62,950 bases of DNA from Candidatus Scalindua sp. SCAELEC01. GTDB taxonomy: Bacteria; Planctomycetota; Brocadiia; Brocadiales; Scalinduaceae. Numbering within the stretch: the stretch's first letter is position 1; each line of letters begins with the position of its first letter. Shown in pieces: positions 24,269 through 33,773 of this stretch. The DNA lies in the NCBI GenBank assembly GCA_004282745.1, contig SHMT01000029.1:1-62950 (forward strand). The letters are read 5' to 3'. The notes under the pieces were generated by a model, which did not search any database, was not told the DNA's origin, and worked only from the letters and a program-made list of their open reading frames with translations. The position numbers and the translations under genes were made by a program.

Positions 24269-25240
24269 ATGAAATGTTTCGGACTATTCCTATTTGTACT
24301 TCTACAATTACTTTGTTTATACCATGTGGATGCGGATAACTTAAAGGCCGTGAGAGTAGTTGTCAATGGTGAGATAATTACCGAATTTGAAGTAAGAAGC
24401 CGGGTAGCTGAGGCCTTCTATCGTGCTGAAGAGAACTATTCCGGGGAAGAACTGTTACAAAAGAAGCAAGAGTTAATTTATAATGCCGTTGAAGAGTTAA
24501 TTGATAGAAGGATCCTTGTTCAGGAAGCGGAGAAGCTGTTTCTTGATGACCCGGCAAAGTCTGAATCGGTTGAAAAACAGTTAGAGTCTTTTGTTAAAGG
24601 AGCGGTAGATGAAGTGGGTTCTCTTTTTAAGTTTTATGAGTTAGCCCATAAACAGGGCATAAATCCCATGAAAAAGAGAGCTGAGTTAAAGAAGGACATT
24701 ATGGTCGATGAAATTTTACGCGAGAATGTGTACCGGAAGATAATTGTTACTCCCAAAAAAATGAAACAATATTATCAAGAGCATATAGACGATTTTTCAG
24801 AAGAGGGGAGTTTAAGTTTTCGTCAGATATTAATAAGATTTTCGAGTTATGATTCAAATGAAGAGGCAAAAACATTTGCTGAAGAGCTGTTGAAAAAAGT
24901 GAAGAGCGGTAAAAATTTTGCTGATATTGCCAAGGAATTCTCTGAAGGTCCACACTCTTATAAGGGTGGTTTGTGGGGATATGATGAAGTCATGGATTTT
25001 AGGAAAGACCTTGTAGCAGACATTGCGAAACTCAAGAAAGGTGAAATGAGCCAGATAGTGGAGACCTCTATTGGTTACCATATCTTTACCGTCGAGGATG
25101 TTGTCCTTGCGAAAACTCTCTCTTTTGAAGAGGCGCAAGATCAAATTTACCAGATACTTTTTCGTGAAGTATTTCTTGAAAAGAAAAGGGAGTATTTACA
25201 AAAACTTAAGAAAAATGTAGTGATTAAGAGGTATTATTAA
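24269..25240 (+). CDS. SurA-like periplasmic peptidyl-prolyl isomerase
   Basis: A 323-residue exported chaperone/isomerase. A signal peptide (about 1-22) is followed by the SurA N-terminal pattern AVRVVVNGEIITEFEVRSR and helices. One parvulin domain spans about 180-275: LSFRQILIRF, FADIAKEFSEGPHSYKGGLWGY, IVETSIGYHIFTVED. E. coli SurA has two parvulin domains; this has one, like many PpiC/SurA-type proteins. It should aid outer-membrane protein folding. GGAGG lies 6-7 bp before the ATG. Its last 17 bases overlap the end of the convergent tyrS. Confidence 0.88.
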   Translation: MKCFGLFLFVLLQLLCLYHVDADNLKAVRVVVNGEIITEFEVRSRVAEAFYRAEENYSGEELLQKKQELIYNAVEELIDRRILVQEAEKLFLDDPAKSESVEKQLESFVKGAVDEVGSLFKFYELAHKQGINPMKKRAELKKDIMVDEILRENVYRKIIVTPKKMKQYYQEHIDDFSEEGSLSFRQILIRFSSYDSNEEAKTFAEELLKKVKSGKNFADIAKEFSEGPHSYKGGLWGYDEVMDFRKDLVADIAKLKKGEMSQIVETSIGYHIFTVEDVVLAKTLSFEEAQDQIYQILFREVFLEKKREYLQKLKKNVVIKRYY

Positions 25241-26441
25241 TGGTTATCCTTGCGAAACGGCGTTTTCCTACCTTGAGAAGCATTCCTGCTTTTACTTCAA
25301 CTTCAAGTGATGGGTCTGTTAAAGTGTTATCATCAATACTTACACCTCCCTGAGTTATTAACCGTCTTGCTTCACCATTTGTCTTTGCGAAACCACTTAA
25401 CACTAACAGCTTCACTAACCACAGTTTTTGTTCCCGACCTGCTTCTAGTGAAAGAGTAACTTGTGGTACTTCATCTGGGAGTTTTCGTTCTTTAAAAATT
25501 CGATCAAATTCTTTTGCTACCCTTTCGGTTGTCTCTTCATTGTGATAACGACGGATAATGGCTTTTCCTAAATTTACTTTTGCTTCTCGCGGATGGGCAC
25601 TTAAGTAGAGGTCTATTTCGTCTAATGTCGCATCGGTAGCCAATTCAAAATATTTACGCATGAGATTATCCGGAATAGACATTGCTTTACCGAAAATCTC
25701 CTTCGGTTCATCACATATACCGATATAGTTACCGAGACTCTTGCTCATTTTTTTGTTACCATCGATTCCTTCAAGCAGGGGAGTCGTAAGAGCAACTTGA
25801 GGTTCCATGTGTTTATCTCTCTGAAGGTCACGGCCCACGAGTAAACTAAATGTCTGATCAGTGCCTCCTATCTCTACGTCGCTTCGAATCATTATTGAAT
25901 CATATCCTTGCATTAACGGGTAAATGAATTCGTGAAGGCTTATGGGAACACCGGAGTTGTATCTTTTTGTGAAGTCATCCCGTTCTAGCATTCTAGCCAC
26001 AGTCATCTTTGCAGCCAACGAAATTACATCCATAAATTTCATTTCACTAAACCACTTACTGTTGTAATAGATTTCTGTTTTTTCTAAATTGAGTATCTTC
26101 CCTAATTGATTTAAATAGGTTTTTGTGTTCTCTTTTATCTCTTTGTGAGTTAGTTGTGGTCTTGTCTTGTTTACGCCGGTAGGGTCACCTACTAAAGCCG
26201 TGTAGTCCCCAATGATGAGTATTGCCGTATGCCCCAGTTCTTGAAAATGGCGTAACTTGTGGATTGGTACTGCATTTCCAATATGTATGTCTGGTGCGGT
26301 GGGGTCAAGACCTAGCTTTATCCGAAGAGGTTTGTGTGTTGTTATTGATCTTCGGAGTTTCTCAACAAGCTCTTCTTCCCGAACTAGATCGACGATACCT
26401 CGTTTAATGACCTCCAACTGCTTTTCAATACTTTTAAACAT
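25224..26441 (-). CDS. tyrS: Tyrosine-tRNA ligase
   Basis: A 405-residue class I synthetase. The HIGH motif is HIGN in LGLDPTAPDIHIGN, and KMSKS is present exactly in NKKMSKSLGN. The C-terminal S4 RNA-binding domain includes LLVLSGFAKTNGEARRLITQ. It fits the TyrZ-type branch (HIGN, spacing, length about 400). The start overlaps the last 8 bases of the CPBP protease gene, and GAAGGG inside that gene serves as its ribosome-binding site, so they are co-translated. Its 3' end overlaps the convergent SurA-like gene by 17 bp. Confidence 0.96.
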   Translation of the reverse strand: MFKSIEKQLEVIKRGIVDLVREEELVEKLRRSITTHKPLRIKLGLDPTAPDIHIGNAVPIHKLRHFQELGHTAILIIGDYTALVGDPTGVNKTRPQLTHKEIKENTKTYLNQLGKILNLEKTEIYYNSKWFSEMKFMDVISLAAKMTVARMLERDDFTKRYNSGVPISLHEFIYPLMQGYDSIMIRSDVEIGGTDQTFSLLVGRDLQRDKHMEPQVALTTPLLEGIDGNKKMSKSLGNYIGICDEPKEIFGKAMSIPDNLMRKYFELATDATLDEIDLYLSAHPREAKVNLGKAIIRRYHNEETTERVAKEFDRIFKERKLPDEVPQVTLSLEAGREQKLWLVKLLVLSGFAKTNGEARRLITQGGVSIDDNTLTDPSLEVEVKAGMLLKVGKRRFARITINNTS

Positions 26442-27174
26442 GACCCTTCAAAAACTGCTTATAGGATAAGAGGAAAACAAACGTAATAGAATTATGTAAC
26501 AGATGAACGGTCATTGGTGCTATTAATGACTTTGTTAGCTCAAACAGATATGCCAGTAACAGTCCCAAAATAAAAATTTGAAAAAAAACATGGGCATTCA
26601 AATGTACCAGCGCAAAGAGACCACCGCTAATAATAATTGTCTTTGTTTTGCCAACGGTAGGTCTAATTACTGGTTGGAGGAACCCTCGAAAAAGGATTTC
26701 TTCAACAATGGGGGCTGCCAGTGTTCCAAAAAAGACCATAAAAACGAGTACGGGTACTGACTCCTCCTGCAATAGTTTTGTAATAATTTCTTGGTTATCA
26801 GGAGAAATACCAAATAATTCAGAGATAAAATTTACCGCATAGCTTACGAAAATGATGACAGGGAGAATCACGATGTAATGTTTAAGTCCTAACCACACAT
26901 CTGTTTTCCAGTTATCAATTGTCAAACCGACCGAACGCAACGGCAGATTGTAACCTGCACGGATGATATAAAAAACATAGAGGCAAGTGAGTGTATTTAC
27001 AACTAAGGATAAACTGATGATAGCAACATTTTGCCCAACAAGTTTAGCGAAATCGAGTCCAAAAAGCGTTTCAATAAGATTGAAAAGAACCGGTATTCCC
27101 ACCATCATCATAAGAAAATAGAAAAGAAACACCTTACATAGATCTCTTAATCTCCAACAGTCATCAGTGCACAT
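26434..27174 (-). CDS. CPBP family intramembrane metalloprotease
   Basis: A 246-residue polytopic membrane protein of the CAAX-protease/bacteriocin-processing family. The catalytic EExxxR motif is E158-E159-x-x-x-R163 in VEEILFRG, with His ligands in ALVHLNAH (H191) and near HLLHNS. About seven to eight hydrophobic segments. Substrates of bacterial CPBP proteins are mostly unknown. It is the first gene of a pair with tyrS. Upstream lies a decayed family 2 repeat. Confidence 0.88.
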   Translation of the reverse strand: MCTDDCWRLRDLCKVFLFYFLMMMVGIPVLFNLIETLFGLDFAKLVGQNVAIISLSLVVNTLTCLYVFYIIRAGYNLPLRSVGLTIDNWKTDVWLGLKHYIVILPVIIFVSYAVNFISELFGISPDNQEIITKLLQEESVPVLVFMVFFGTLAAPIVEEILFRGFLQPVIRPTVGKTKTIIISGGLFALVHLNAHVFFQIFILGLLLAYLFELTKSLIAPMTVHLLHNSITFVFLLSYKQFLKGHV

Positions 27175-27403: not shown

Positions 27404-27805
27404 CTACGGACTCCCCCATAACTGAACTTGAACCTCTCTCGTGCGAGGCCCATCAAATTCACAGAGAAAAATACCCTGCCATGTCCCGAGAGAGAGAGCT
27501 CCGCCATTGATTGGAATTATTTCTGATGACCCAATCAAAGAGGTCTTAATGTGTGCCGCTGAGTTGCCTTCGGCATGCGCATAATGACCGTGCATAGGTA
27601 TTAGTTTGTTCAATCCCTGTACAATATCTGCTTTTACCGAGGGGTCAGCATTTTCGTTAATAGTAATTCCAGACGTTGTGTGAGGAGAAAAGAGGGCACA
27701 TATACCCTCTTCCAATCGCGATTCTTTTACAATACATTCAACTTCACCTGTTATATCTAAAAGCTCTGTTTGCGAATGGGTTTTTATTTTAAATGAATGT
27801 TTCAT
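27404..27805 (-). CDS. yjbQ: YjbQ/UPF0047 family protein
   Basis: A 133-residue protein with the UPF0047 signature: ALFSPHTTSGITINENAD, HAEGNSAAHIKTSLIGSSE and LGTWQGIFLCEFDGPR. The conserved His, Asn and Glu cluster in the known structures. YjbQ proteins have a reported weak thiamin-phosphate-synthase-like activity, and the physiological role is unsettled. I use the ATG whose A is the last base of the upstream gene's TGA (TGATG), so it is translationally coupled to the GcvH-like gene; a GTG one codon earlier also overlaps. Last gene of the gltX-thpR-gcvH-like-yjbQ run. Confidence 0.9.
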   Translation of the reverse strand: MKHSFKIKTHSQTELLDITGEVECIVKESRLEEGICALFSPHTTSGITINENADPSVKADIVQGLNKLIPMHGHYAHAEGNSAAHIKTSLIGSSEIIPINGGALSLGTWQGIFLCEFDGPRTREVQVQLWGSP

Positions 27806-28203
27806 CACTTTTTTCGCTTTTTCTTAAGGCTTTTTGTATAAGCGATATACTCAGTCTCATCCATAAGCCGGTCAAGTTTTTCTGGTTCTAGTATTCTGAC
27901 CTTTGCAAACCACCCCTCCTCATAAGGATCATTTTGCAATTTTCTCAGACTGGTGTATAGATCCATGTTAGTCTTAATTACTTCCCCATCTATAGGTACT
28001 ACTAAATCCCGTAGCTCGTTCATGGATTCTATTTCTCCGTAAGCAATGCCAGAAACAATCTCATCACCAACCTTTGGCAAGCTAATGGATATAAGATTCC
28101 CCATTTCGTTCAACAGGAATTCGGTTACCCCGAGGGTGACAAACTTCCTTTTTAAATTGATCCAATTGTGAGATTCCGTAAATTTAATGGTTCCTGTACT
28201 CAT
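27805..28203 (-). CDS. GcvH-like protein without the lipoyl lysine
   Basis: A 132-residue protein aligning by eye along the whole H protein of the glycine cleavage system: KFTESHNWI, LGVTEFLLNEMGNLISISLP, VGDEIVSG, PIDGEVIKTN, DPYEEGWFAKVR. In GcvH the lipoyl-bearing Lys is in ESVKAASD; here the matching stretch is ESMNELRD with Asn62, so lipoylation at the usual site is impossible. No Lys is adjacent. It also has a basic tail (KSLKKKRKK). It overlaps thpR by 20 bp upstream and yjbQ by 1 bp downstream, and no gcvT or gcvP is in the window. It is probably not a glycine-cleavage carrier; a non-lipoylated scaffold role is inference. Confidence 0.8.
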   Translation of the reverse strand: MSTGTIKFTESHNWINLKRKFVTLGVTEFLLNEMGNLISISLPKVGDEIVSGIAYGEIESMNELRDLVVPIDGEVIKTNMDLYTSLRKLQNDPYEEGWFAKVRILEPEKLDRLMDETEYIAYTKSLKKKRKK

Positions 28204-28777
28204 TTTTGTATAGGGTAAATCTATTTAATGTTGAGTAAATTGGGCCTTTCGGTGTTAATTCACTCTGTTTTAAAGTAATATGATTGACGGTTTCCTGTCC
28301 AAAAAAACGGTCTGAATAAGAAGGTAAAAGCTCCAGAATTTTGTGAATGTTTTTCTGCGATTTTATTCTGCCAATAGTAATGTGACCAACATATTTTCTC
28401 AATTCTCGTTTTATACCAAACTCTTCTATTTCTGTTTCGACCTCTTCAAAAATATTTACCAGATTGTTCTCTTTATCGCCCAAACCAACGAATAGTATAC
28501 GAGGTCGTTTTGCCGTTGGAAAAACAGCGACATTTCCTATTTGAATCCTAAAAGGTCTGCAACGCGACGCAACACTTTCAAGAGATTTGACCAATGAAGG
28601 AAGAATAATCGGATCAACATCTCCAATAAATTTGACAGTCACGTGCAGGTTTTCATACGCCATCCATCGAATACGGACATCTGTCTCTTTTAGTTGGTTG
28701 AGAAACTCAAGTATCCGTTCTTTTATTCTTTTTTCAATTTCAATTGCTATGAATAATCTCAGAGAGTCATTCCGCAT
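28184..28777 (-). CDS. thpR: RNA 2',3'-cyclic phosphodiesterase (2H family)
   Basis: A 197-residue 2H phosphoesterase (LigT/ThpR). The two HxTx motifs are HVTV in ENLHVTVKFIG and HITI in YVGHITIGRI. The opening SLRLFIAIEI is typical. It hydrolyses 2',3'-cyclic phosphate ends of RNA. I start at the ATG at 28777; a TTG at 28786 would add three residues. It follows gltX by about 10 bp and overlaps the GcvH-like gene by 20 bp, so the genes are co-transcribed. Confidence 0.92.
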   Translation of the reverse strand: MRNDSLRLFIAIEIEKRIKERILEFLNQLKETDVRIRWMAYENLHVTVKFIGDVDPIILPSLVKSLESVASRCRPFRIQIGNVAVFPTAKRPRILFVGLGDKENNLVNIFEEVETEIEEFGIKRELRKYVGHITIGRIKSQKNIHKILELLPSYSDRFFGQETVNHITLKQSELTPKGPIYSTLNRFTLYKNEYRNH

Positions 28778-28787
28778 TGACCACAAT

Positions 28788-30101
28788 TTACAAAAAAGCT
28801 TTCATCGCGTATTCGAGACGATTGAGAGATTTTTCTTTGCCTAAGAGTTCTAATGTCTCAAAGATTCCAGCACTTGCACTTTTTCCCACGATCGCCACCC
28901 TTAACGGTTGGGCCAATTTGCCAAAACCGATCCCCTGATGCGTCGTTACTTTCCGTAGGCAATCCTCAATTTCCTTAATTGAGAATGTCTTAAGTTCTTT
29001 CAATTCTGCATGGGTATTGCTTATCAGGGAAGATACACCATCTTTTTTGAGAAATTTCTCAACCGCTTTATTATCATATTCAATCTCATTTGAGAAAAAA
29101 GGGTACGTTTGTATCATGAATTCAGATAACGTCTTAAATCTCTCTTTATACAATTCTGCAAGTTTCTGTAACCATGCATCTGATAGGTGATTGGTATCAA
29201 AACCTGCTTTTTCGATAAAGTAATGGAGGCTTGATGCGAGCTTCTCTGCAGGTAATTCACGGATATACTTACTGTTCATCCAGTCAAGTTTAACGGTGTC
29301 AAACCGGGCACTAGATTTGTTAACCCGTTTCAAAGAGAACTTTTCAATCATCTCCTGCTTGGTCATAAATTCTTGATCATTTCCCGGAGACCAACCAAGG
29401 AGGGCAATAAAATTGATTATGGCTTCAGGTAGATAGCCCTTTTCACGATATTCAACTGCTGAAGTAGCGCCATGACGCTTACTCAAGCGGGTACCATCTT
29501 CCCCCAGGATCATTGGGATGTGGGCAAATTTGGGTAAATCAAATCCCAAGGCATGGTATAAAGCTATTTGCCTTGGTGTATTGGATATATGGTCGTCGCC
29601 TCGAATTATGTGGGAGATCTCCATGAGGCCATCATCAACAACACAGGCGAAATTATAGGTTGGAAATCCATCTCCCTTTTGTATGATAAAATCTTCGATT
29701 AGAGCGGTGTCAAATTTGATTTTTCCATGTATTAAGTCCTCTATATCTGTTACCACATCCTTAACCTTAAAGCGAACGGCTCTGCCCTTTTCAGGATCAT
29801 CAATGTAGGTCGCATCTCCTTGTTTCAAGAGCTTTTCAACAGATTCCTGGTAGATAGCGAGTCTCTGACTCTGATAATATGGGCCCTCATCCCAATCTAA
29901 CCCCAACCATTGTAAACTCTCTAATATCGACTGTGTTGCCTCATTTGTGGAACGCACTTGGTCGGTATCCTCAATCCTCAAGACCAGCTTCCCATTGTGA
30001 TGTCTTGCAAAAAGCCAATTGTAAAGGGCTGTCCTTGCGCCACCAATATGTAAGAAACCGGTTGGGCTAGGAGGGAACCTTACTTTCACATTTTTTGTCA
30101 T
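28788..30101 (-). CDS. gltX: Glutamate-tRNA ligase
   Basis: A 437-residue class I synthetase. The HIGH-type motif is FPPSPTGFLHIGGARTALYN at residues 9-28; the KMSKS equivalent is RLSKRHGA. Zinc-type Cys insertion is absent, as in many bacteria. The C-terminal anticodon-binding domain ends after GIFETLELLGKEKSL. The protein is somewhat shorter than the usual 470-490, with the shortening in the C-terminal third. Whether it also charges tRNA-Gln cannot be seen. It heads the gltX-thpR-gcvH-like-yjbQ run; argC lies 44 bp upstream on the same strand. Confidence 0.95.
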   Translation of the reverse strand: MTKNVKVRFPPSPTGFLHIGGARTALYNWLFARHHNGKLVLRIEDTDQVRSTNEATQSILESLQWLGLDWDEGPYYQSQRLAIYQESVEKLLKQGDATYIDDPEKGRAVRFKVKDVVTDIEDLIHGKIKFDTALIEDFIIQKGDGFPTYNFACVVDDGLMEISHIIRGDDHISNTPRQIALYHALGFDLPKFAHIPMILGEDGTRLSKRHGATSAVEYREKGYLPEAIINFIALLGWSPGNDQEFMTKQEMIEKFSLKRVNKSSARFDTVKLDWMNSKYIRELPAEKLASSLHYFIEKAGFDTNHLSDAWLQKLAELYKERFKTLSEFMIQTYPFFSNEIEYDNKAVEKFLKKDGVSSLISNTHAELKELKTFSIKEIEDCLRKVTTHQGIGFGKLAQPLRVAIVGKSASAGIFETLELLGKEKSLNRLEYAMKAFL

Positions 30102-30145: not shown

Positions 30146-31162
30146 TTAAATGAGTCCCATTGTCTCGTTATGACCACACATGATATTCATATTTTGTACT
30201 GCTTGTCCTGATGCACCCTTCATCAAATTATCTATACTGGAGAAAATGAGAACACGTTTACCAACAACTTTAACAGCAATTTCACACATATTTGTATTTG
30301 TAACGTCCTTTGTCTTTGGAAATGTGCCATCTCTGCTCAGGCGAACAAAGGGCTCACCTCCATACAGATTGTTGAACAAGTCTCTGATCTCCTCATTACT
30401 AATCTCTTTCTTTAACTGAACGTATATCGAACACAAAAGGCCTCGTATCATGGGGATCAAGTGTGGGGTAAAATATACGAATGGATCAGAATTCCCCATT
30501 AAGGAAACAATACTTTCAATTTCTGGTGTATGTCTATGCACTCCAACATTATACGCTTCTAAATTCTCATTCCTTTCACAATAATGTGTTGCCTCTGTTG
30601 GTGTGCGGCCGCTTCCCGAAATTCCCGATTTAGCATCTATGATGATATCGTCTGTATCAATTAGGTCTCTCTTGATCAAAGGGGCCAAGCCGAGAATCGC
30701 GGCTGTAGGATAACAGCCGGGATTTGCTACGAGAGAAGCTGTCTCAATCTTATCTCTAAATAACTCAGGAAGTCCATACACAGCAGCCTTTAAATGAGAT
30801 GGATCGGTATGCTTCACCTTATACCATCTTTCGTAGACTGATTTTTCTGCAAACCGGTAATCAGCACTGAGGTCGACTACCTTAATTCCTGCGTCGAGAA
30901 ATTGGGGAACAAATTGCATCGACACCGTTGGAGGAAGAGCCATAAAAACCAGATCAACATCACCTGGTACCTTTCCTTCCCCCAATGGTGAACAGGGCAT
31001 TTCAAATATTTTTGTTAAAACAGGAAAAATTTCTGAAATCTTGGTACCAGCCATTCTTCGCGTACCGAGATACGAAATTTCTGATTCAGGATGCCTTAAT
31101 AGGATTTTAATCAATTCCAGACTTGTGTATGCGGTTGCCCCAACAATTCCTACTTTTGTCAA
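30146..31162 (-). CDS. argC: N-acetyl-gamma-glutamyl-phosphate reductase
   Basis: A 338-residue enzyme of arginine synthesis that reduces N-acetylglutamyl phosphate with NADPH. GIVGATAYTSLELIKIL is the nucleotide-binding opening. The catalytic Cys is C150 in VANPGCYPTAAIL; the conserved HRHTPEIESI follows at about 209. Length is that of the type 1 enzyme (about 340). The start is a TTG at 31162 with AAGGA 9-10 bp upstream. No other arg genes are in the window. Confidence 0.95.
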   Translation of the reverse strand: MTKVGIVGATAYTSLELIKILLRHPESEISYLGTRRMAGTKISEIFPVLTKIFEMPCSPLGEGKVPGDVDLVFMALPPTVSMQFVPQFLDAGIKVVDLSADYRFAEKSVYERWYKVKHTDPSHLKAAVYGLPELFRDKIETASLVANPGCYPTAAILGLAPLIKRDLIDTDDIIIDAKSGISGSGRTPTEATHYCERNENLEAYNVGVHRHTPEIESIVSLMGNSDPFVYFTPHLIPMIRGLLCSIYVQLKKEISNEEIRDLFNNLYGGEPFVRLSRDGTFPKTKDVTNTNMCEIAVKVVGKRVLIFSSIDNLMKGASGQAVQNMNIMCGHNETMGLI

Positions 31163-31562
31163 TAATATTTTTCCTTATTTCTAATTTAAAACATCCATAA
31201 CTGCTTCAATTATAGCTACTTTTGAATGATAACAACCATTCACTGAAACGTCAATTGAAAATTTGTTAATGATGAAATCACAATTTATCACAGTATTTAT
31301 ATACAAATAACTACCGAGACTGATAAAGAGGTAGGTTTCTTATCTGTTCAAACCCTCCCCGGTTGAGGTATCCTCATCTCATAATGGTTTTCGGATAAAC
31401 TCAAGGTAAAATAAGCTGGCTTTAAATGTACCGCTTCCTATGAAGTGGGATTAAGCTTGAAAATATGGTATAAATTCTTTATAACTTTACCTTTCTTATC
31501 CTTTTGCGATCGAGGGAAAGGAGAAAGAGTGTCAGCCGAATTTGTTAACAGGAGACAAGATA
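31163..31562. other. Divergent intergenic region with a family 2 fragment
   Basis: A 400-bp gap between argC and the FG-GAP gene. A fragment of family 2 (TATCCTCATCTCATAATGG and on, about 31369-31399) lies here. No gene seen; promoters not placed. Confidence 0.4.
31369..31399 (+). repeat. Family 2 terminal fragment
   Basis: About 31 bp matching the CTCATCTCATAGTGGTTTTCGGATAAA end of the element at 56637. The rest of the element is missing. Confidence 0.7.
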
Positions 31563-33773
31563 ATGAGAGGTGTGTTAAATGTAGTAGTCAGAAGGAGGGG
31601 GTATTTCTCCCTGTTTCTTTGCTTTCAAATTGTGGTCTTTATCGTCTCACCTATGCTTTGGTCGAAGACTACTCATGGGGAAGCTGTTTATGTTGATATG
31701 AGAAATGGTAATGATAGAAATAGTGGGTTGTCTCCATCAACGGCGCTGAAAACGCTACAAAAAGCTGAAATCTTAACCGGTTATGATAATACAAACGTTA
31801 TCTTAATGAATGATGAGATTCCGGAAGAAGATTTTGCAAACTCCTCTTCCCTTATCTTAGAAGGGTCTACTCATAACGACGAAAATAGTAATGAATTAGA
31901 TCGGATTGTTCTTGGTGCGGAGTCAATTACAGGTTGGAAGCAATTCTTACCGGGTGTGTGGCAAGCTACACAGGGGATCTTGCCCCTTCGCATTGAGGTT
32001 AATGGTGAATTGATTGAGAAAGGAAGTGCCACTGATTTAAAAAATAATCAATGGTACTGGAAATCCGGTATCTTGTTTCTCAAGGATCTTGAGGGCAATC
32101 CGGATGAAACGGGCAAGAGCGTACTTGCTATTGTTAAAAATTGTGGTTGGAGTGTGACATCTGGTGATTTTAATGGAGATAGTCTACGTGACATTGTAAC
32201 CGCGGACGTATTTTATGATGGGGCTGCTTTAAATACGGGTGAAATATACATAAATTACGGAAGTGACAAATTTTCCGGCTTTCCTGACCAAATTATTTCC
32301 GACCCTGATGGGAACAGGAACGACCAATTTGGTTTTTATGTTGCATCTGCTGGAGATGTCAATAACGATGGGTTTGATGAGCTTATTGTTGCAATGGGTT
32401 GGGGAGTTAATAAGGTTTATCTGTTTATGGGATCTCAACAAGGATTAAGGGATAAACCTGACACTATTCTTGTACCTCCCAATGGTTTCCCTGCATATGG
32501 TTTTGGGCACAGAATATCATTTAGGCATGGAGATGCGAACGGGGACGGTTTTGCAGATATTCTCATCGGTGGTGGCATCGATACTCTATACTTTTGTCTC
32601 TATTATGGGTCCCCTTCTGGGGTAAACGTTAACCCAGATGTTGTTGCATATCCTACTATTTTGCAACAAATTTATGTTGACACATCATTCATTGGAGATA
32701 TTAATGGCGATGGTTTCGATGACTTGGCGGTGAATCCTAGTTCACAGTTCTCTTCAAGCAATACGGATATTTACGTCTATTTCGGTTCTTCGGAAGGGAT
32801 CAGGGAAGAGCATCCTCAAATTATTACCATGGACATTGGATGGAACCATCCAGGTGGTTTCTCTACTAGGCTTTCCGCAGCTGGCGATGTTAATGGTGAC
32901 GGTTTTGATGATTGCTTGGTAGGGAACGAGTGGGTGTTTGGCAGTTTCCAACTGGAGGGAAAGGCGAATGTTTTTTTTGGTGCATCCTCAGATATCTCGC
33001 TGAACTCTTTATCCGAAAGGTGGGGGGGGCTGGGTCCTGTAAGAGCAGGAGAAACGCTTTCTGTTTTCCCGAACATCGAGATTGATAATCCTAAACCAGG
33101 TTTCAATGCTAGGTTTGGTGCCTCAGTTGATGGTATCGGAGATTTTAATCATGACGGTTTTGAGGATATCATTATTGGTAACTCTTCCAACTTAAATCCT
33201 TTTATTTATTTTGGTGCGCCCGAAGGTGTTGCAAAGACACCTTCCTTAACGTTAAATGATGTCTCTAATGCTTGGTCTGTATCTCATGCTGGTGATGTTA
33301 AAGGAAATGGACAAATCTTTACAATCGTGGGTGAAGAGTTTGGCAGTGCATATTTATATGCATTAAAACGGCCCAATCGAAGTATTGTTAACGACTACGT
33401 TACATTTGTTTCAATAGTTGGTACCCAGAAGATTACGACTGACACGGATGGATGTCCCGAAGGATTTGTGGGTACATTTTCTTTTGAAGTAAGGCTTGAA
33501 AACGTGAGTACCAGAAATCTTGAACTCCTTGCAGTTGAGATTGTCTCCTTAACAAACGGAAATGTACTTAAGGATACTGGTAGTGGTTCAGAGGGAACGC
33601 TGCTGACGGTTCCCCAAATAGGTGACTATGCAGATGGCGAACTGGAATCGGGAGAATGTGTCGAATTTTCTCTTGAAATTTGTTTAAAAACGTCCGAACC
33701 TTTCGGCTTTTTTGTAGATGTATTGGGTACATCAAGCACACAAGATGAGGACTCACGTATTAAGGGTTTTTGA
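31563..33773 (+). CDS. Secreted FG-GAP/VCBS repeat protein
   Basis: A 736-residue exported protein. I start at the ATG at 31563 with GGAGA 7 bp upstream, giving a basic N-terminus and a signal segment (YFSLFLCFQIVVFIVSPML). Residues 40-170 include YVDMRNGNDRNSGLSPSTALKTLQKA, the opening of right-handed beta-helix/DUF1565-type domains. From about 195 to 600 there are at least six FG-GAP-type units built on D-x-N-x-D-G-x-x-D loops (GDVNNDGFDELIV, GDANGDGFADILIG, GDINGDGFDDLAV, GDVNGDGFDDCLVG, GDFNHDGFEDIIIG), probably a calcium-binding beta-propeller. The C-terminal 120 residues are beta-rich. Probable surface protein; ligand unknown. Confidence 0.8.
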   Translation: MRGVLNVVVRRRGYFSLFLCFQIVVFIVSPMLWSKTTHGEAVYVDMRNGNDRNSGLSPSTALKTLQKAEILTGYDNTNVILMNDEIPEEDFANSSSLILEGSTHNDENSNELDRIVLGAESITGWKQFLPGVWQATQGILPLRIEVNGELIEKGSATDLKNNQWYWKSGILFLKDLEGNPDETGKSVLAIVKNCGWSVTSGDFNGDSLRDIVTADVFYDGAALNTGEIYINYGSDKFSGFPDQIISDPDGNRNDQFGFYVASAGDVNNDGFDELIVAMGWGVNKVYLFMGSQQGLRDKPDTILVPPNGFPAYGFGHRISFRHGDANGDGFADILIGGGIDTLYFCLYYGSPSGVNVNPDVVAYPTILQQIYVDTSFIGDINGDGFDDLAVNPSSQFSSSNTDIYVYFGSSEGIREEHPQIITMDIGWNHPGGFSTRLSAAGDVNGDGFDDCLVGNEWVFGSFQLEGKANVFFGASSDISLNSLSERWGGLGPVRAGETLSVFPNIEIDNPKPGFNARFGASVDGIGDFNHDGFEDIIIGNSSNLNPFIYFGAPEGVAKTPSLTLNDVSNAWSVSHAGDVKGNGQIFTIVGEEFGSAYLYALKRPNRSIVNDYVTFVSIVGTQKITTDTDGCPEGFVGTFSFEVRLENVSTRNLELLAVEIVSLTNGNVLKDTGSGSEGTLLTVPQIGDYADGELESGECVEFSLEICLKTSEPFGFFVDVLGTSSTQDEDSRIKGF

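Follow-up and report, generated by a model that had tools for sequence, protein, structure and literature searches.

A GcvH paralogue without the lipoyl-lysine in anammox bacteria, and its relation to known H-fold proteins

H-fold proteins and the window gene

The lipoate needed for glycine cleavage and lipoyl relay is carried on a Lys residue of the H-protein (GcvH). GcvH-L of Streptococcus pyogenes (5a35), an H-fold paralogue outside glycine cleavage, keeps this Lys and sits in a lipoylation/macrodomain operon, and TIGR03077 ('not_gcvH') is a curated family of GcvH-like proteins that its very name separates from GcvH, the members of which we take to be chlamydial H-like proteins. LbpA of sHdr sulfur oxidation is a GcvH paralogue that also acts outside glycine cleavage, and the Lys is strictly conserved in 95 LbpA proteins (PMC6067878). 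Simiate/FAM206A (Abitram), which reportedly occurs only in eukaryotes and is about 20% identical to GcvH, has been proposed to descend from the H-protein (PMC3859600); its non-metabolic role would be a precedent, by analogy, for reuse of the H-protein fold. No paper on a Lys-less GcvH family or on an anammox gcvH paralogue was found in the open-licence literature.

The window, namely the whole stretch of 62,950 nucleotides analysed here, contains a Lys-less GcvH paralogue, which is labelled H' below (ordinary Lys-bearing GcvH is called K-type).

27805..28203, minus strand: Lys-less GcvH paralogue (H'), 132 aa, ATG start, H-protein fold
28018..28020, minus strand: codon of Asn62, the hairpin residue (ESMNELRD) that aligns with the lipoyl-lysine (from alignments; position computed from the ORF start at 28203)

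H' resembles ordinary GcvH over the whole fold (125 residues, Z about 22), with 27–33% identity and shared scaffold residues. However, it has no lipoyl-Lys, is relaxed at E13, A30, D36, S60 and V61, falls under the NCBIfam GcvH cut-offs (84.1 versus 115.85 bits and 104.9 versus 117 bits for the window copy), does not lie beside gcv genes, and occurs without GcvP. It differs from LbpA in the missing Lys and in neighbours that are not of the hdr, dsrE or tusA type, and from GcvH-L, to which it is structurally similar (Z 16.1), in having neither the Lys nor the lipoylation/macrodomain operon. The TIGR03077 model gives H' 54 bits, far under its cut-off of 144.05 bits. Judged by sequence, H' is thus set apart from GcvH, LbpA and TIGR03077: it has the structure of an H-protein and fails in the defining Lys feature.

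A third GcvH-like form, in which the Lys is kept (SLEAGKYIGPL), was seen in families f2 and f3 and in some members of f1, the family of the source genome (loci L056:2212-5396, L060:105-5396, L057, L058, L059 and L073). At L056 and L060 it is accompanied by TusA-, ThiF/MoeB- and DsrE-like genes, and at L060 also by HdrB/C-like genes; from its gene content, this looks like a sulfur-transfer cluster that is related to, but distinct from, LbpA/sHdr.

The lipoyl hairpin, the fold and the C-terminal tail

An earlier note on this DNA had recognised an H-protein fold from end to end, with Asn62 instead of the lipoyl-Lys, and both observations are borne out. The window protein contains a single Pfam domain, GCV_H (PF01597, residues 7–124, E-value = 3.2e-26; score 92 bits, cut-off 22.2), and in a phmmer search against solved structures it aligns almost over its full length with the mouse, Thermotoga and pea H-proteins. 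Its lipoyl hairpin reads YGEIESMNELRDLVVP, and the same hairpin of solved H-proteins reads GALESVKAASELYSP, with their Lys aligned to Asn62. Structure prediction, which the note had proposed as a check, agrees: an AlphaFold model with 32 Lys-less sequences (pLDDT 93.9, pTM 0.85) has the hairpin intact and superimposes on the bovine H-protein 3klr with Z 22.1 and an rmsd of 1.0 A over 125 residues. The top matches among solved structures are all H-proteins (Z 18–22), whereas biotinyl/lipoyl domains reach a Z of only about 7 or below.

The residues kept and lost were compared with 57 ordinary planctomycete GcvH sequences. The scaffold is retained in H' (H12, W14, G25, L42, E59, N79, P93, G97, W98 and Y119), and E59 is invariant. 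By contrast, E13, A30, D36, S60, V61 and K62, which are 94–100% conserved in K-type sequences, are relaxed or lost in H', with some of the losses in the hairpin and cavity being graded (position 13 is still Glu in 59% and position 60 still Ser in 62%). In the pea H-protein, the cavity that shelters aminomethyl-lipoate is lined by the Glu that follows the first His, which is E13 here. We also considered a lipoylation Lys shifted within the hairpin and rejected it: no substitute Lys is conserved, about nine of the 51 hairpins listed having a non-conserved Lys at least one position off (51 of 61 sequences were checked by script and the remainder by eye). Nor is there a constant Lys, Cys or Ser elsewhere in the hairpin among the sequences compared.

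The window protein ends in a short basic C-terminus, KKKRKK, of which KRKK forms the tail. Most members of families f1, f4 and f5 have a Lys/Arg-rich C-terminal tail of up to 81 residues with a net charge of +5 to +36, whereas most K-type GcvH proteins have neutral or acidic ends. The basic tail is not conserved across the whole H' clade, being absent from f2, f3, f6, f8 and f9. Given its shortness in the window protein and its absence from other families, the tail is not the common function of H'; in f1, f4 and f5 it may provide an added contact with nucleic acid, the ribosome or a membrane.

Distribution, ancestry and gene neighbourhood

All 58 searched relatives of the order gave GcvH-type matches, nearly always one H'-like and one ordinary, and a search with a profile of the Lys-less form recovered an H' orthologue in 69 of the 75 genomes of the class. 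The six genomes with no match at orthologue level are G057, G060, G061, G064, G069 and G074; G060, G069 and G074 are only 58–70% complete, while G064, a member of family f7, carries a protein with ESVK instead of H'. The source genome and the majority of the f1, f2, f4 and f5 genomes encode an HZS_alpha domain within a single ORF of about 810–845 aa; we accordingly take the order to be Brocadiales, the anammox order, and the class to be Brocadiia. Among 61 distinct H' sequences, covering the order as well as families f6, f8 and f9, the lipoyl site is occupied by Glu (21), Asp (18), Asn (17), Ser (2), Gln, Arg or Ala (one each), and never by Lys, a pattern that chance is far from explaining; the ordinary GcvH of the H'-bearing genomes reads ESVK. 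What is conserved is therefore the absence of Lys and not Asn itself, the conservation of which the earlier note had put up for checking. A tree built from 97 sequences places the class's Lys-less forms on one side of a branch (support 94/91), and the same clade was obtained when a second tree was made with a larger number of ordinary sequences (99/98). The dN/dS ratio of H' between close relatives is mostly 0.03–0.3, pointing to purifying selection.

These data bear on the reading that H' is a decaying relic or its Asn a sequencing error. In its favour, the copy in a sister species of the same genus (G001:C12:238440-238820; L014/L035) is broken by frameshifts; the lipA gene of that genome is also fragmented, however, so that an assembly error is the likely cause. 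The 61 distinct sequences are intact and Lys-less and fall in one old clade, which excludes a one-off mutation and with it the refuting condition named in the earlier note, namely Lys being kept by homologues in close relatives, and the dN/dS values rule out a pseudogene; we rejected this reading, the probability of which is close to nil.

Elsewhere in the phylum, 39 of the 40 GcvH genes sampled have ESVK. Starting from the exception, in G170, a second clade without the Lys was identified, with Asp or Asn at the site, in families f21, f58 and f69 of another planctomycete class (loci L194 to L197, L199 and L201; genomes G170, G241, G349, G086, G135 and G284), some genomes of which also have K-type copies. 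In the tree this clade is nested within the K-type GcvH of the class it comes from (96/92), which suggests an independent second loss, although a tree constrained to join both Lys-less clades was not rejected (p-AU 0.27), so that a common origin is compatible with the data. At L202 and L203, in another planctomycete class, longer frames (about 432 aa) end in a C-terminal GcvH-like domain, and these are possible fusions.

A whole-genome GCV_H search located the normal gcvH that the earlier note had suggested looking for: an ordinary gene (ESVKSVSD) on contig C84 of the source genome, in the run gcvH - gcvPA - gcvPB - lipA - lipoate ligase/transferase-like gene - lpd (names read from the sequences; GDC-P and lipA confirmed by profile), with gcvT on contig C88. 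This makes the window gene an additional paralogue and not the glycine-cleavage H-protein. As the note had stated, neither gcvT nor gcvP is in view: there is none in the 22–34 kb interval of the window, and both lie elsewhere in the genome. Furthermore, G062, G063, G065, G070 and G071 (85–94% complete) have H' with neither GDC-P nor a match to K-type GcvH, and in G023 (94% complete, 10 contigs) and G029, which also have no GDC-P, the only GcvH forms are H' and the third, sulfur-linked one. In G018 (77% complete), which has H', searches detected neither GDC-P nor lipA; across the class, lipA was matched in 74 of the 75 genomes, with scores above the cut-off in 65. Since H' is kept in at least seven relatives without glycine decarboxylase and ordinary GcvH, a role confined to glycine cleavage was rejected: its role is independent of that pathway, and its retention where glycine breakdown has been lost points to some other job.

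Around H' the window contains the following genes, all on one strand.

30146..31162, minus strand: argC, start of the family-specific gene run (named by sequence recognition)
28788..30101, minus strand: gltX, upstream of thpR and near H' across family f1 (named by sequence recognition)
28184..28786, minus strand: thpR, RNA 2',3'-cyclic phosphodiesterase (TIGR02258, 152.5 bits), overlapping the start of H' by 20 nt
27404..27808, minus strand: yjbQ (UPF0047; TIGR00149, 157.6 bits), overlapping the stop of H'
26434..27174, minus strand: CPBP-family intramembrane protease-like gene, downstream and conserved in f1 (best NCBIfam match 72 bits, below cut-off)
25224..26441, minus strand: tyrS, downstream neighbour in f1 (named by sequence recognition)

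The coupling of H' to thpR and yjbQ in the window, which the earlier note had pointed out, is thus confirmed by overlaps at both ends, but the order thpR-gcvH-yjbQ is conserved only locally. The order typical of f1 is argC-gltX-thpR-H'-CPBP-tyrS; thpR adjoins H' in 15 of 17 f1 genomes (it is lost in G013 and G015), and by tblastn against all loci yjbQ is beside H' only in its own genus (G000 and G001), so that a conserved thpR-gcvH-yjbQ cluster was rejected beyond the family for thpR and beyond the genus for yjbQ. In f5 and f3, each of the 28 genomes seen has dgcN-like and dgcA-like genes after H', and a divergent mutS is often alongside; in f2 the order is miaA-H'-yhaM; in f4, H' is flanked by cca on one side and, on the other, by a ThiF/MoeB-like gene accompanied by an Nfu-like gene; and in f8 and f9 asd follows H' in 8 of 8 cases, usually overlapping it. 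The dgcN-dgcA-like pair (L042 to L054, L122 and L124) belongs to the D-glutamate N-acetylation and racemisation family, with scores of 278 of 480 and 243 of 400 bits, under the NCBIfam cut-offs. Also in the window, at 31542-33773 on the plus strand, is a 743-aa FG-GAP/integrin-like repeat protein that is likely exported (translation read by eye).

The context is therefore stable within each family, but among the loci compared no neighbour is common to all families, and consequently the operon reveals no pathway. In none of the loci seen does H' lie beside gcv or lip genes. The proposal of the earlier note, a repurposed carrier fold in a conserved RNA/cofactor-linked cluster, fits in its first part, because relatives share the loss of Lys, the genome has a normal gcvH at another site and H' keeps the fold; the conserved cluster is not supported, other families having other partners.

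Possible roles of H' and their consequences

We regard it as probable that H' is an ancient, non-lipoylated pseudo-carrier paralogue of the H-protein that persists as a module for binding or regulation. It has kept the complete H-protein scaffold while the attachment Lys and the surrounding K-type-invariant residues were lost or relaxed, and since that Lys is missing, established biochemistry predicts that H' would be unable to carry lipoyl or aminomethyl groups or to act in a GcvH-type lipoyl relay. H' would then be a scaffold or a regulator, its fold preserved because it binds a partner, which could be a protein, a metabolite, or a polyanion such as RNA; in several anammox families the strongly basic tail may serve to attach it to nucleic acid, the ribosome or a membrane. 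Because operon partners differ between families, a single pathway-specific role is disfavoured. A further proposal, that the H-protein fold was turned into a lipoate-free core component, essential in anammox bacteria (e.g., a basic-tailed adaptor of the ribosome, RNA or membrane), early in the class and perhaps twice, is tentative, and we consider it doubtful.

Another candidate role is that of a regulator or decoy of the lipoylation or glycine cleavage complex, in which H' would dock on LipA, LplA/LipM, GcvP or GcvT in the stead of the H-protein and thereby tune their activity. H' has indeed kept the fold and the general surface of an H-protein, and the distribution of lipA implies a lipoylation target nearly everywhere; however, the genomes with H' but without GDC-P and ordinary GcvH exclude a version restricted to glycine cleavage, the gene never lies with gcv or lip genes in the loci seen, and G018 keeps H' without a detected lipA, so that we judge this role rather unlikely. 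An association with nucleic acid or the ribosome, with the H fold as core and the Lys/Arg-rich tail binding RNA or DNA, would suit the histone H1-type, low-complexity-like tails of several f1 members and G042 (up to 81 residues, net charge up to +36), the presence of thpR, gltX, miaA, yhaM, cca and mutS among the neighbours, and the study of Simiate/FAM206A, the proposed H-protein descendant, in connection with gene expression (PMC3859600). The families without tails and the mere KRKK of the window protein speak against it, as do the acidic core of H' (pI about 4–5.9) and the metabolic neighbours asd, dgcN and dgcA, and nucleic-acid genes are frequent as neighbours by chance; we therefore hold it to be improbable. 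That H' carries some other prosthetic or covalent group on another residue would be consistent with the intact carrier fold and hairpin and with the invariance of E59, but the residue at the tip varies (Asn, Asp, Glu, Ser, Gln, Arg or Ala) and the hairpin offers no constant Lys, Cys or Ser, which leaves very little room for this explanation.

General models call H' a glycine-cleavage H-protein, and its gene is present in nearly every anammox genome examined. Because several genomes have only H' and no glycine decarboxylase, neither glycine cleavage nor the reductive glycine pathway can safely be deduced from a gcvH match alone. As far as sequences can tell, H' would represent a clean case of a carrier protein that has become a non-carrier over a long time.
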